The notes under the pieces: generated by a model
What the model was told of the DNA's origin: nothing
Seen by the model: only the letters and a program-made list of their open reading frames with translations
Databases searched by the model: none
NCBI GenBank assembly: GCA_017381015.1
Contig: JAFOCV010000132.1
Span: 1 to 33,884, forward strand
Source of the DNA: Bacteroidaceae bacterium
GTDB taxonomy: Bacteria > Bacteroidota > Bacteroidia > Bacteroidales > Bacteroidaceae
DNA length: 33,884 bases
Reading direction: 5' to 3'
Part shown: piece after piece, positions 10,573-33,884 of the stretch
Position numbering within the stretch: position 1 is the first letter of the stretch
Layout: every line of letters begins with the position of its first letter
Translations under genes and position numbers: made by a program

Positions 10573-10604
10573 TTTGCATAGAATCAGATTTCTTCGTACC
10601 TTTG
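10573..10604 (+). promoter_or_regulatory. metK promoter
   Basis: TTTG at 10573-10576, 20 nt, then TACCTTTG at 10597-10604 gives a full Bacteroidetes promoter. Transcription would start near 10611, leaving a leader of about 155 nt before the metK ATG. Confidence 0.8.
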
Positions 10605-10610
10605 CACCCG

Positions 10611-10765
10611 ATTTAATTAACACATGTGGATAGATTTGGGCTGCTTGCAACCACAGAAAAAAATGCTAAAAGAAAAGACCTGCCTTTGCCAAAGCACAGG
10701 ACTTTCACGCATTCCGCCCTATTTCTCTCCCCATACATTATTAATATATTTAATTATTAAAGATT
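10611..10765 (+). promoter_or_regulatory. Long metK leader with S-box-like core (candidate SAM-responsive RNA)
   Basis: The leader contains GCTTGCAACC (10643-10652), then an A-rich stretch and ATGCTAA (10663-10669). These resemble the GGCAACC and GGUGCUAA core of SAM-I-type riboswitches in sequence and order. A hairpin follows with CCTG (10679-10682) paired to CAGG (10697-10700) and inner CTTT/AAAG pairs. The usual SAM-I 5' strand of helix P1 and the AGAGGGAGGGA region are not seen, so this would be a reduced or different architecture. Placement directly before SAM synthetase supports SAM feedback. No intrinsic terminator with a T-run is present, so control of translation would be expected. 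Confidence 0.45.
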
Positions 10766-12025
10766 ATGGGTTACCTATTTACTTCAGAATCAGTTTCAGA
10801 AGGCCATCCCGACAAAGTGGCCGATCAGATCAGTGATGCCGTATTGGACAAGTTGTTGGCATTCGATCCTGAATCAAAAGTTGCGTGCGAGACATTGGTT
10901 ACCACCGGTCAGGTGGTCTTGGCTGGTGAGATTAAGACTCAAGCCTATGTGGACCTTCAGCGCATTGCACGCGAAGTGATTAATCGTATCGGTTACACCA
11001 AGAGCGAGTACATGTTTGAGGGCAACTCTTGTGGTGTATTCAGCGCCATTCATGAGCAGAGTAGCGACATCAACCGTGGTGTGGAGCGTGAGGAGCGCGA
11101 AAACCAGGGTGCTGGCGACCAAGGTATGATGTTTGGTTATGCCACCAACGAGACAGAAAACTACATGCCTCTTAGCCTTGACCTCAGCCACCGTCTATTG
11201 CGCGAATTGGCCGACATTCGTCGCGAGGGCAAGGTGATGACCTACTTGCGTCCCGACTCCAAGAGCCAGGTTACCATCGAATACGATGACAACAATGTGC
11301 CCGTACGCATCGATACCATCGTGGTGAGCACTCAGCACGACGAGTTTGATACCGATGAGGCTATGCAACAGAAGATTCGCGAGGATGTAATCAACATTCT
11401 CATTCCTCGTGTGAAGGCCACCATTACAAGCGAGAAGATTTTGGCCTTGTTCAACGACGATATCATCTATCATGTCAATCCCACCGGCAAGTTCGTAATC
11501 GGTGGCCCTCATGGCGATACCGGTTTGACTGGTCGTAAGATTATCGTAGACACCTATGGTGGCAAGGGTGCACATGGTGGTGGTGCCTTCAGTGGTAAGG
11601 ACCCCTCAAAGGTGGACCGCTCTGCAGCTTATGCGGCACGTCACATAGCCAAGAACATGGTGGCAGCAGGTGTGGCCGACGAGATGTTGGTTCAGATCTC
11701 TTACGCCATCGGTGTGGCACAACCCGTCAGCATCTGTGTGGACACCTATGGTCGCGCCAAGGTGGGCATGACCGATGGTCAGATAGCAGAGAAGATCAAG
11801 GATATCTTCGACCTTCGCCCCTATGCCATTGAGCAGCGCCTCAAGTTGCGCAATCCAATCTATGAAGAGACAGCTGCCTATGGCCACATGGGACGCGAGC
11901 CACGTATCGTAACCAAGACCTTCGATTCTAATTACAATTGTGGCAAGAAGACCGTCGAGGTAGAGCTCTTCACTTGGGAGAAGCTCGACTACGTAGAGAA
12001 GATTCGCGAAGCTTTTGCTCTCTAA
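10766..12025 (+). CDS. metK: S-adenosylmethionine synthetase
   Basis: The 419-residue enzyme makes SAM from methionine and ATP in the cytoplasm. Signature blocks are [18 protein letters not shown] at the N-terminus (ATP-binding His14), [12 protein letters not shown] near residue 118, [10 protein letters not shown], and the phosphate-binding loop [16 protein letters not shown] near 270-285. Length fits the longer Bacteroidetes MetK proteins (E. coli has 384). A Bacteroidetes promoter and a long, probably regulatory leader precede it. It heads a plus-strand gene run reaching yidD, with a 41-nt gap to the LOG-family gene. Confidence 0.98.
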
Positions 12026-29741: not shown

Positions 29742-31934
29742 TTATCTGATGAAGAGCATTTCTCTGTACTTGGGCAATGGCCAAAGCTCATCGTCGATGA
29801 TAGTTTCCAGCTTGTCCACATGAGTGCGTATTTCCTCGATTAGAGGCGCAACATTGTCGTGATAGGCAATAGCCTTCTCGCGCTCAGTTTCCAGGCGATT
29901 GGCCACCTTGCGTGCACCTATCAGTGAATACACATGTTGTGTGATGCTGGCGGTGCTTTCTGCTATCTTCTCGATGAGGTCAATGTTTGCGGCATTCATC
30001 GTCTTGGCTTGCTCGGCAGGGAATACTTGCGATACCTTGCACACATTGTCCAGCAATTGGCTCTGATATCGAGTAGCCACGGGCACAATGTGGTTCAGGC
30101 AAATGTCGCCCAGGATACGAGCCTCTATCTGTACCTTCTTCGTGTATGTTTCCAGTTTTATCTCATTGCGAGCCTCCAGTTCGGGTAGAGAAAGTACATT
30201 CATACGTGTAAACATATTCACGGTTTCCTCGCTTAGATATTGGTCCAGAATGAGGGGTATGCTGGTTTCGGTGTCCAATCCTCGGCGTGCGGCCTCTTCC
30301 TTCCATTCATCGCTATATCCATTGCCATCGAAGTGTATGGGTTTGCATACCTTGATGTCCTCGCGGAGTACCACCAGAATGGCTTTCACCATATCCACAC
30401 CTTCCGAGATTAATTTGTCCACACGTTGCTTGAAGTCGGTCAATTGTTCTGCCACGGCCGTATTAAGCACTATCATGGAAGCAGCACAATTGGCTTGTGC
30501 GCCAACGGCTCTGAACTCAAATCTATTACCCACAAAGGCAAATGGCGAGGTACGGTTACGGTCGGTATTGTCTACCAGCAGTTCTGGTATCTGCGGTATG
30601 TCTAGCATAACGCTTTGGCGTGTGGCCAGGTTGAAGATGTCGTCATCTTCGCTTGTCTCCAGTTTTTTCAGGACCTCTGCCAACTGACTGCCCAGGAACG
30701 AGCTGATGATGGCTGGAGGAGCCTCATGAGCACCTAGGCGATGAGCATTTGTTGCGCTTACGATAGAGGCTTTGAGCAATCCATTGTGGCGATACACGGC
30801 CATAAGGGTTTCCACGATGAAGGTGATGAAGCGGAGGTTGTCCATCGGGGTCTTGCCTGGTGCGTGCAATAGAATGCCGGTGTTTGTGCTCAGACTCCAG
30901 TTGTTGTGCTTACCGCTACCGTTGATGCCCTTGAATGGTTTTTCGTGCAGGAGGCATCGGAAGCCATGCTTGTGAGCCACCTTCTTCATCAATGCCATAA
31001 TGAGCATGTTGTGGTCTATGGCAAGATTCATCTCTTCGAAGATGGGTGCCAATTCAAACTGATTGGGAGCCACTTCGTTGTGGCGAGTCTTGCATGGAAT
31101 GCCCAATTCCAAAGCACGAATCTCCAGGTCTTTCATGAAAGAAACCACACGCGAGGGGATAGAGCCAAAGTAATGGTCGTCCATCTGCTGGTTCTTTGCC
31201 GAGTCGTGTCCCAGAAGAGTGCGTCCGGTCATGATAAGGTCGGGACGAGCCGAGTAGAAACACTCATCCACCAGGAAATACTCCTGTTCCCAACCGAGAT
31301 TGCACTTCACGCTACTGATTTCGGGGTAGAACATGCGTGCCACATCCAGTGCAGCCTTGTCCACCGCCTTGATGGATTTCTTCAATGGTGCCTTGTAATC
31401 AAGGGCTTCGCCTGTGTAGGAGATGAATACGGTGGGTATCATCAGCGTGTCGCCCATCACAAAGACGGGGCTGGCAGGGTCCCAGGCACTGTATCCACGT
31501 GCCTCAAAGGTGGAGCGGATGCCACCATTTGGGAAACTACTGGCATCGGGCTCCTGTTGCACCAATTGCTTGCCGGTAAATTCCTCTATCATTCCGCCCT
31601 TGCCGTCGTGCTCCACAAAACCATCGTGCTTCTCGGCGGTACCCTCGGTGAGTGGTTGAAACCAGTGGGTGGTATGGGTCACGCCCAGTTCCATGGCCCA
31701 TCGCTTCATACCTTCCGCCACGGCATCGGCGGTTTTGAGGTCGAGTGTAGAACCTTTGTCTATCACATCGCACATCTTTTCATACACACCAGCAGGAAGA
31801 TACTTGAACATCTTCTGCTTGTTGAATACATATTTGGCAAAGAATTCGCTAGGGCGTTCCTTGGGGGCTGGTACCTCTAGAGCTTTCTTGCCAAAGGCCT
31901 CTTCAACAACCTTAAATCTAAGTGTAGCAGGCAT
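29742..31934 (-). CDS. glnN: Glutamine synthetase type III
   Basis: The 730-residue enzyme joins ammonia to glutamate. Its length and order fit GSIII, the large dodecameric form common in Bacteroidetes, and exclude GSI (about 470 aa). Key blocks are RSTFEARGYSAWDP, CNLGWEQEYFLVDE (a metal-binding Glu region), HNEVAPNQFELAPIFEE (about 285-300), INGSGKHNNWS (about 335-345) and NRTSPFAFVGNRFEFRAVGA. It starts 20 nt after cysS on the same strand, so it is probably transcribed from the cysS promoters. No separate promoter fits into those 20 nt, though one inside cysS cannot be excluded. A P-II or amtB gene is not nearby. Confidence 0.97.
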   Translation of the reverse strand: MPATLRFKVVEEAFGKKALEVPAPKERPSEFFAKYVFNKQKMFKYLPAGVYEKMCDVIDKGSTLDLKTADAVAEGMKRWAMELGVTHTTHWFQPLTEGTAEKHDGFVEHDGKGGMIEEFTGKQLVQQEPDASSFPNGGIRSTFEARGYSAWDPASPVFVMGDTLMIPTVFISYTGEALDYKAPLKKSIKAVDKAALDVARMFYPEISSVKCNLGWEQEYFLVDECFYSARPDLIMTGRTLLGHDSAKNQQMDDHYFGSIPSRVVSFMKDLEIRALELGIPCKTRHNEVAPNQFELAPIFEEMNLAIDHNMLIMALMKKVAHKHGFRCLLHEKPFKGINGSGKHNNWSLSTNTGILLHAPGKTPMDNLRFITFIVETLMAVYRHNGLLKASIVSATNAHRLGAHEAPPAIISSFLGSQLAEVLKKLETSEDDDIFNLATRQSVMLDIPQIPELLVDNTDRNRTSPFAFVGNRFEFRAVGAQANCAASMIVLNTAVAEQLTDFKQRVDKLISEGVDMVKAILVVLREDIKVCKPIHFDGNGYSDEWKEEAARRGLDTETSIPLILDQYLSEETVNMFTRMNVLSLPELEARNEIKLETYTKKVQIEARILGDICLNHIVPVATRYQSQLLDNVCKVSQVFPAEQAKTMNAANIDLIEKIAESTASITQHVYSLIGARKVANRLETEREKAIAYHDNVAPLIEEIRTHVDKLETIIDDELWPLPKYREMLFIR

Positions 31935-31954: not shown

Positions 31955-33463
31955 TTATTTGTTCAATGACCAGGTGAAGCCATCCTTTGTATCCTTTACC
32001 TCAAAACCAAGGGCAGCCAGGTCGTCTCTAATCTTGTCTGACAAAGCCCAGTTCTTTTCGCTCTTGGCTTGCTGGCGCTGCTCCAATACAAAGTCCACCA
32101 CCTTGCCAAAGGCCTCTTCTCTAGCCTTGTTGCTGCCGTCCTTTTCCTCTGAAAGACCAAGGATTTCTAAGGCAAAGGTATGGAACACCTCGGTGAGTGC
32201 AGCCACTACATCTTCCTTGATGCTAGCCTTCTTGTCGATGACGGTGTTCAGCACTCGGCATGCGTCAAACAGATGGCTAATCACCATGGGCGAAGCCATA
32301 TCGTCGTTCATGGCATCGTAGCAATTCTGGCGCAAGGTGTCCACATAGCTCATTTCCACCTGGGGCTGACCCTTTACCTTCTGTCCCTCTTTCAGACGCT
32401 TCAGAGCCTTCCATCCGTCCATCAATCTGGCCAAGCCCTTTTCTGCACTCTGCAGAGCCTCGTTGCTGAAGTCTACGGTGCTACGATAGTGAGCCTGAAG
32501 GATGAAGAAGCGTATGGTCATAGGAGAATAACCACGCTCCAGGCGCTCGTGCTCACCAGCGAAGAACTGAGGCAGAGTGATGAAGTTGTTGTATGACTTA
32601 CCCATCTTCTTGCCATCGATGGTAATCATATTGTTGTGCATCCAGTATGTCACCATGGGGTGTCCCTGACTAGCCTGAGCCTGAGCTATCTCGCACTCAT
32701 GATGAGGGAAGACCAGGTCAAGACCACCGCCATGAATATCAAAGCGCTCGCCCAGATACTTCTTGCCCATAGCCGTACATTCGCAATGCCATCCAGGGAA
32801 ACCCTCGCTCCAGGGGCTGGGCCAATGCATGATGTGCTCGGGGCTTGCCTTCTTCCAAAGGGCAAAGTCGGCCTGATTGCGCTTTTCGCCCACACCAGCC
32901 AGTGTGTCACGACTGGCATCCTTGATGTTCTCCAACGAACGACCGCTCAGTATACCATACTTATGGTCCTGATTGTAGCGCTCTATATCAAAGTAGATAG
33001 AACCGTTGCTCTCATAGGCATAACCATTGTCCATAATCTGTTGTACCAACTGCTGCTGCTCTATGATATGACCCGTAGCATGAGGTTCTATGCTTGGGGG
33101 CAGACAGTTGAGCGCATCCATAGCCTCATGGAAGCGATTGGTATAGTACTGAGCCACCTCCATGGGTTCCAATTGTTCCAGACGAGCCTTCTTTGCAATT
33201 TTGTCCTCGCCCTCGTCAGCATCATGTTCTAGATGGCCCACATCAGTAATGTTACGCACATAGCGCACCTTGTAGCCCTGATGCTTCAGGTAGCGGAACA
33301 ATAGGTCAAAGGTAATTGCAGGTCTTGCATGACCCAAATGAGCATCGCCATAAACGGTGGGACCACATACATACATTCCCACGCGCCCCTCCACCAAGGG
33401 ACGGAACATCTCCTTCTGTCTAGTCAGAGTATTATAAATCAAAAATGGTTGCATAATCTTCAT
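31955..33463 (-). CDS. cysS: Cysteinyl-tRNA synthetase
   Basis: The 502-residue class I synthetase charges tRNA-Cys. HIGH motif: HLGH at 42-45 in [16 protein letters not shown] motif: KKMGKS near 284. Zinc ligands fit Cys33 (VCGP), Cys in WHCECTAM, and His/Cys in PHHECEIAQ. The C-terminal DALR-like helical region and anticodon domain end in [16 protein letters not shown]. Two starts are possible, Met1 (33463) or Met4 (33454, MQPFLIYNT); the second matches relatives better. It lies directly behind three tandem promoters at 33480-33660. Confidence 0.97.
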
Positions 33464-33479
33464 TATTTTATTTCGCGTA

Positions 33480-33660
33480 CAAAATTACGATTAAGTGAGC
33501 GAATTACCAAATTTATTTGAGTAATTCCGAACGATAGTAATTTAGAACGCAGTTCAAAGGTACGATTAAGCGAGCGAAATATCAAATTTATTTGAATATT
33601 TCCGAGCGATAGTACCTTAGAGTGTGACTCAAAGTACGATTAAGCGAGCGAAAAAGCAAA
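33480..33660 (-). repeat. Three tandem 75-bp repeats, each with a full minus-strand promoter
   Basis: Units begin at 33480, 33555 and 33630, an exact period of 75 bp. Units 1 and 2 share about 59 of 75 positions; unit 3 is partial and diverges after about 33656. On the minus strand each unit contains TTTG (33508-33511, 33583-33586, 33657-33660), exactly 20 nt, and a -7 box: TAATTTTG (33480-33487), TACCTTTG (33555-33562) and TACTTTG (33630-33636, one base short). Each also has the conserved plus-strand core TACGATTAAGYGAGCGAA. The nearest unit would start transcripts about 10-15 nt before cysS. Confidence 0.85.
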
Positions 33661-33706
33661 AGAATTTTGTTTCTAACGATTTTATACTCCCTCCTCCTTC
33701 TGGAAT

Positions 33707-33739
33707 AAAAAGCCCCTGACGGCTGGTGCCATCAGAGGC
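33707..33739 (-). terminator. Rho-independent terminator on the minus strand
   Basis: On the minus strand GCCTCTGATGGC pairs with GCCGTCAGGGGC over 12 bp (two G-T pairs) around a 4-nt loop. TTTTTATT follows. It would end the transcript of a gene lying to the right of the window. Confidence 0.85.
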
Positions 33740-33825
33740 TGGGAGAGGAGATTACTTCGTGAGGTTAGAATAGCGAATAGCTGAACAGTTTAACCATGCG
33801 GAACTTATACACGTTTGATTACTAC

Positions 33826-33884
33826 TTATCCACTATATATTTGTGGAGGAGGCAGATTTTCTATTTTCTTAGGGCCGAAATAAA
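33826..33884 (-). CDS. Possible C-terminal end of a gene cut by the window edge
   Basis: From the right edge one minus-strand frame is open for 18 codons, reading YFGPKKIENLPPPQIYSG, and then stops at TAA (33826-33828). The other two minus frames close earlier. The strong terminator about 90 nt further on supports a gene ending here. The fragment is too short to assign a family. Confidence 0.35.
   Translation of the reverse strand, partial: YFGPKKIENLPPPQIYSG

Follow-up and report, generated by a model that had tools for sequence, protein, structure and literature searches.

What is the role of a promoter-like sequence that stands three times in front of one pair of genes? The question is raised by the end of the window, the whole stretch of 33,884 nucleotides of a Bacteroidaceae bacterium that was analysed, where direct reading of the sequence reveals a minus-strand repeat array ahead of cysS that occupies the final 400 bases. 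The initial annotation had described units at 33480, 33555 and 33630 on the minus strand, each with TTTG, 20 nt and a -7 box directed towards cysS-glnN, and had read them as three promoters. This arrangement is confirmed, as is the loss of one base from the distal -7 box, since positions 33630-33660 read TTTG-N20-TACTTTG. The form itself, TTTG-N20-TAnnTTTG, matches the Bacteroides geometry published in PMC7366714. The features of the locus are listed below, where R1 is the covariance model of the hairpin repeat family to which the units belong.

33480..33543, minus strand: proximal unit, whole hairpin, with TTTG-N20-TAATTTTG without mismatch; 86.8 bits with R1, which was built from 67 sequences that include this unit; DNA fold z -2.5
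33480..33487, minus strand: the proximal unit's -7 box, TAATTTTG, 16 nt ahead of the start codon ATG of cysS
33508..33511, minus strand: -33 TTTG of the proximal unit, within the inner stem (pattern scan)
33545..33555, no strand assigned: spacer palindrome GAAC-gca-GTTC at the proximal/middle boundary, found by reading and only partly paired in the fold
33555..33618, minus strand: middle unit, whole hairpin, with intact TTTG-N20-TACCTTTG; 90.8 bits with R1, this unit being likewise among the 67; DNA fold z -3.2
33620..33630, no strand assigned: spacer palindrome GAGT-gtg-ACTC at the middle/distal boundary, found by reading and paired in the RNA fold
33629..33690, minus strand: distal unit, truncated, with TACTTTG; 25.7 bits with R1 (E 0.0047); DNA fold z +0.7
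33711..33740, minus strand: terminator-like hairpin with a T-rich tail, in the cysS direction and just upstream of the array (pattern scan, 1 found against 0.4 expected)
31955..33463, minus strand: cysS, cysteine--tRNA ligase (TIGR00435, 452 bits; PF01406)
29742..31934, minus strand: type III glutamine synthetase, glnN, 20 nt after cysS (PF12437 GSIII_N; ORF list)

The type III glutamine synthetase is likely encoded in the same operon as cysS. A pattern scan for TTTG-N20-TAnnTTTG returned minus-strand matches without mismatch at 33480-33511 and 33555-33586; from one -7 box to the next across the three units, the TTTG ends lie 75 apart, with the core of the third unit shifted by one base. A repeat search found 75-nt copies at 33477-33551 and 33552-33626 with 80% identity, as well as a 37-nt family of three copies at spacings of 75 and 74, and TRF reported 33482-33660 with a period of 75, 2.4 copies and a score of 230, the runner-up among 8 window rows scoring 39. 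Since the third unit lacks most of its left part, the array amounts to two complete units plus a truncated third. When up to 3 mismatches are allowed, the core TACGATTAAGYGAGCGAA is confined within the window to the three array sites (shuffle mean 0.01). By itself, the bare promoter pattern is weak evidence, because with up to one mismatch it has 8 matches in the window against 2.9 expected, and because a perfect minus-strand match at 33307-33338 lies within the coding sequence of cysS, probably by chance. No E. coli-type sigma-70 promoter was found in 33400-33884, and the array has no Rfam match at gathering score. Elsewhere in the window, a SAM-II riboswitch (RF01726, 55.8 bits) is present on the plus strand at 10620-10679, 15 nt after a perfect TTTG-N20-TACCTTTG at 10573-10604 and ahead of the ORF 10766-12025.

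The array is not special to cysS-glnN. Indeed, the genome-wide search for the core that the initial annotation had suggested shows that it precedes other genes too: with up to 2 mismatches, the genome holds 24 matches in 12 clusters (reversed control 0), and all 12 clusters stand before a start codon, with the -7 box ending 8-34 nt ahead of it. The genes behind them include queA, cysS, NAD kinase, IMP dehydrogenase and yidC, a Mrp/ApbC-like ATPase that scores under the curated cut-off, a DUF1016/YhcG nuclease, a BspA-type LRR protein, phosphomannose isomerase, a GH20 enzyme and prolyl-tRNA synthetase, while one is a small protein with no NCBIfam or Pfam match. The R1 search added a thirteenth promoter locus, on contig C145 ahead of a P-type ATPase gene, and with 150 first-look candidates scored per genome it gave at least 34 matches in this genome and at least 92 and 94 in two relatives. 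In a genus sample, the core (up to 1 mismatch) was present in 81 of 121 genomes with a maximum of 69 copies, the reversed control giving 2 matches overall; in a family sample, it was present in 37 of 151 genomes and 9 of 30 genera (5 control matches). A scan of named genomes, which required the exact core ending in GTA and thus favoured intact units, listed at least 115 stretches, largely from rumen or gut MAGs labelled Prevotella, Prevotellaceae or Bacteroidaceae, with a few isolates. Cultivated Prevotella with the family include strain P5-50 and aff. ruminicola Tc2-24. Core-pattern counts miss variant lineages, as exemplified by the close relative G004: it has one core match, yet its cysS unit is present with another inner hairpin and another core. 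The hairpin repeat family is scattered through many Prevotella-like genomes; it was not met in the open-access literature, supplements apart, whose RNA or REP lists may hold it.

How the units relate to genes can be followed in 104 clusters from 12 loci of this genome and 80 of the at least 115 listed named loci, related genomes making them non-independent. Promoter-type units are not found mainly in places without a downstream gene, the outcome that the initial annotation had named as speaking against it: an ATG-started ORF of at least 60 aa lies within 150 nt of the -7 box in 96 of the 101 clusters that entered the gene test, and within 45 nt in 87, though a subfamily of non-promoter copies also exists. 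Among the 5 clusters lacking such an ORF, one has what we take to resemble RNase P RNA and one presumably a GTG-started release-factor gene. On the far side, an ORF starts within 150 nt in 40 of 91 clusters and within 45 nt in 18, as expected with divergent genes. TAnnTTTG is present in 99 of 103 clusters and TTTG at 19-20 nt in 96.

The number of units per cluster bears on the view that three working promoters act in tandem, their number raising or tuning the expression of cysS and glnN. In its favour, two of the three units at cysS have perfect -33 and -7 boxes, both boxes are kept in 17 of 56 internal units elsewhere (91 of 100 proximal ones), and copy number differs among relatives, where orthologous promoters carry from none to three or more units, as checked between species-level genomes. 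Against it, 65 of the 104 clusters consist of a single unit (25 have two, 9 three, 4 four and 1 five), the distal box at cysS is broken, and TAnnTTTG is intact in only 24 of 56 internal units against 97 of 100 proximal ones, a count restricted to units that have at most 3 core mismatches and do not lie too close to an end. If only this genome is counted, at a tolerance of at most 2 mismatches, 11 of the 12 proximal units retain an intact box, and 3 of the 15 internal ones do. The usual case is thus one maintained promoter with decaying copies behind it, and three equal promoters are an unlikely account of the array. As a whole, the initial interpretation is partly supported: judged from sequence, the proximal unit is most likely the promoter of cysS-glnN, and would be the main one, the middle unit possibly adds a minor start, and the distal unit is probably inactive.

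The units have a further property, absent from the initial annotation, as each is an imperfect hairpin whose stems change in a compensatory manner. A unit runs from a small spacer palindrome through one arm of an outer stem (about 7 bp), an unpaired TnnCGYTCGG, an inner stem-loop and an unpaired CGCTYRCTTAWTCG to the second arm of the outer stem. Compensatory variation is seen in the stems, and conservation in the unpaired strands. In the promoter subfamily, the -7 box (GTACCTT-TG) is the outer 3' arm and the -33 TTTG lies in the inner stem, so that the gene-side unit has the complete sigma-ABfr geometry. The structure was aligned over those 67 of 169 distinct units whose inner part measures 25 nt, a set that includes at least 4 non-promoter copies. 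Over these equal-length units, 90.0% of the paired cells are pairs against 80.4 in shuffles, 15 of 20 pairs are changed on both sides against 8.4, and double-change cells number 129 against 39.8, with 0 of 500 shuffles as high. The covariation score is 0.279 against 0.112 shuffled and at most 0.100 for slid versions, bearing in mind that a structure derived from these same sequences has an advantage over the slid control, and that the comparison with shuffles is inflated by related rows. As to the folding of single-stranded DNA, a G079 copy (z -2.3) joins the proximal and middle units, and the L221 copy (z -0.3) and the truncated distal unit fold no better than shuffles.

Such a hairpin might act in the messenger, as a structured RNA leader or attenuator of cysS. 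Indeed, the RNA fold of the minus strand beats shuffles (z -2.8), and transcripts from upstream units would include the downstream hairpins. Nonetheless, the plus strand folds about equally well (z -2.6) and 33440-33720 has no Rfam match at E up to 1. Pairing in DNA rather than in RNA is favoured by the scarcity of one-sided, G-T (in RNA, G-U) type changes, with 21 cells against 129 two-sided ones, and by the 65 single-unit clusters, in which the hairpin precedes the expected start. All in all, an RNA leader is very unlikely.

A second possibility is that the conserved spacer is the site of one regulator or sigma factor, the repeats being its operators. The 20-nt spacer is the most conserved part of the unit, and several of the downstream genes have core functions. 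By contrast, the downstream genes are mixed, ranging from aminoacyl-tRNA ligase to the DUF1016 nuclease and the LRR protein, and among cysS orthologue loci of 30 genomes an R1 unit lies directly upstream in only 5 (G000, G079, G095, G004 and G080). Above all, the same conserved unpaired strands are found in copies without a promoter, and because of this an operator regulon is regarded as quite unlikely.

The matching of the stems could also arise without selection, by template switching in quasi-palindromes that repairs both arms together, a mutational mechanism described in PMC8794818. This would account for the many double and few one-sided changes, and also for an orthologous non-promoter site at which G000 and G079 hold near-identical copies with a wholly different, again self-complementary inner stem. 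It leaves unexplained both the scattered near-identical copies and the conservation of the unpaired strands. Template switching is thus a possible origin of the stem matching, if clearly short of an even chance, and it is compatible with the dispersed hairpin repeat that is preferred below.

The pairing extends to the promoter itself. The left arm of the proximal unit at cysS, AAATTAC, matches the variable letters of its -7 box TAATTTTG, and in 46 of 64 proximal units complementarity holds for both variable letters. Nine proximal units have a box that differs from TACCTTTG, and in 8 of them the arm matches the box actually present, against a shuffled mean of 0.83; 0 of 20000 arm shuffles reach 46 of 64 or 8 of 9. 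Guides of IS200/IS605 elements pair with their own cleavage sites. Owing to the 8 of 9 matches, the unit may be conceived as a promoter-seeking element, in which the left arm would act as a guide that pairs with the -7 box of the host, and a single-strand nuclease would place or rebuild the unit beside vegetative promoters. This reading is rather improbable; if true, each event would give the host gene a new -33 region and spacer, and, since both boxes would be drawn into stems by the same fold, supercoiling could gate the promoter.

Copies are also found outside promoters. Several of the R1 matches in this genome differ in their outer arms and lack a -7 box. In four of these scattered copies the 64-nt match is the same; identity is 92-100% over 77-114 bp, one pair among them reaching 100% over 77 bp, and the remaining flanks do not align. 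By eye, the same 4-mer stands on both sides in 2 of the four, the flanks being repetitive, and comparison of a G079 copy with the empty G095 site gave no clear target-site duplication. In 40 regions of G079, one outer-arm type was found combined with different inner hairpins; these regions were hand-picked, most for short match length, and hence yield no subfamily ratio.

Other sequences are seen next to or within the units. Next to many non-promoter copies of G079 (L299-L318), either on a single side or on both, a TTTTCCG-like heptad is repeated in runs; this heptad may be a target or may have been amplified with the element. A second unit type, GCTCTCGTTCGGCATAAAAAGTA...CTCTCTCTTAATCGCAAATTTG, is seemingly inserted inside the inner hairpin of a promoter-type unit at L193 (cysS, G061), L199 (proS, G079) and L200 (cysS, G064). 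At L027, L035, L038 and L070, palindromic modules of the CAAGGCATA...CTTGT and CTCGGCCA...GATGGC types lie just upstream of units, where they stand in place of the customary left part, immediately ahead of the unit's TTCGG. Finally, at L196 and L234, AGGTAGGTTCTGTAAATTAG-like ends face TATAGAA...ACCTT and by eye resemble a small transposable element, one hairpin at L234 sitting inside it.

Comparison among relatives points to turnover. The non-promoter site mentioned above holds a copy in G000 and G079 and none in G095, G064 and G004, while G061 has unrelated sequence there. Promoter presence was read by eye over 260 nt in G079, G095, G004, G061 and G064, for loaded loci only. Units are present at the cysS promoter in 5 of 5 relatives (one degenerate unit in G004), the core at the proS promoter in 5 of 5, and units at guaB in 4 of 5 (not G004) and at mrp in 3 of 5 (not G064 and G004). 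No unit was found at the promoters of manA (0 of 4 loci) and queA (0 of 1), nor at the promoter of the small unknown gene (L003) in any of five relatives, three of which have arrays farther up that face away. Across the five loci with orthologues compared, the best likeness of the proximal unit is found at the same locus of another genome for cysS (0.91) and guaB (0.88) and narrowly so for the small unknown gene (0.81 vs 0.79), and at another locus for mrp and proS. Conservation of the proximal unit at a locus thus appears mixed. Of internal units, 5 were compared, and none has its best likeness at its own locus in a different genome. The initial annotation had suggested slippage as the way in which copy number varies. 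As the sole source of copies slippage was rejected: within-array identity is high in nadK and manA, where units are 0.94-0.96 alike, and other units are nearer to other loci.

As for what moves the element, a natural candidate is the RAYT (Y1) transposase of the genome, which would make the family a true REP family. Many intergenic hairpin copies are indeed present, and for RAYT subclass 2.6 of Bacteroidetes, PMC6006769 describes atypical flanking structures with copies elsewhere in the genome. Yet the association is negative: at least 20 copies were found in 1 of 24 genomes with Y1 (at least 40 bits) and in 26 of 97 without it (p 0.015; 121 genomes, mainly incomplete MAGs, so that single Y1 absences are weak), and of the 10 genomes that have 40 copies or more, 8 lacked a Y1 over the cut-off. 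An R1 match was found beside 0 of 9 Y1 loci tested, and the 5 Y1 proteins read from these loci have a motif ending in EHH, resembling subclass 1.2, which is listed without REPs in the classification of PMC6006769. Y1 was accordingly rejected as the mover, and a REP family mobilised by RAYT is very unlikely. The outer stem could represent the inverted ends of a classical MITE, which are shared with an autonomous transposon.

Collectively, these data favour the reading, with a probability of about 0.65, that a dispersed REP/MITE-like hairpin repeat, its unit measuring about 75-77 bp, forms the array as a local run, and that the proximal copy serves as the vegetative promoter of cysS-glnN. The remaining copies are best read as mostly products of turnover and not as three equal promoters. 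New units would arise by tandem duplication, as suggested by the likeness of the nadK and manA units within their arrays, and also when loci exchange units or one is copied from another; the family would spread as a DNA hairpin, single-stranded or extruded, through some enzyme. A repeat with a complete predicted vegetative promoter precedes cysS, guaB, yidC, NAD kinase and other genes; if the dispersed repeat is correctly read, promoters of core genes in rumen and gut Prevotella would be rewired by a mobile or fast-recombining DNA element. Furthermore, compensatory stems around conserved unpaired strands would make it possible to study DNA hairpin recognition, or else mutation by template switching, independently of RAYT and REPs.

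Different known systems share part of these traits. The sigma-ABfr promoter of Bacteroidota has TTTG near -33 and TAnnTTTG at -7 (PMC7366714), and the proximal unit shows this -7 box, TTTG about 20 nt upstream of it and a short distance to the start codon. It differs from a plain sigma-ABfr promoter in that the spacer is strongly conserved and both boxes lie within hairpin stems. As in putative mobile promoters, one promoter sequence stands here ahead of many unrelated genes; among such promoters, we know of no palindromic unit with compensatory stems. Putative mobile promoters are mentioned in PMC4596501, whose authors raise the idea of a mobile promoter for BrickBuilt, a MITE of Porphyromonas gingivalis. 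BrickBuilt is similar in belonging to the Bacteroidota and in being intergenic, with tandem units that change in copy number, and in its promoter activity, which is predicted from sequence for the repeat described here (PMC4596501). Its tandem unit is 23 nt long within a MITE that has a leader and a tail, whereas the hairpin unit here is 75 nt with a period of 75, so that the two are set apart by description (PMC4596501). The likeness to REPs and BIMEs is closer in form, as these are short imperfect hairpins in many intergenic copies, single or in tandem, with complementary stem changes between families (PMC3733652, PMC6006769), and the hairpin repeat is likewise a short palindromic repeat in many intergenic copies. 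In contrast, its unit of about 60-75 nt exceeds the REP length of about 20-40 bp (PMC3733652), its consensus has neither a GTAG nor a CGTC tag on either strand, it shows no association with RAYT, and it carries a complete promoter. By look and behaviour, the family is placed beside REPs and MITEs, and it is not filed as a REP mobilised by RAYT.
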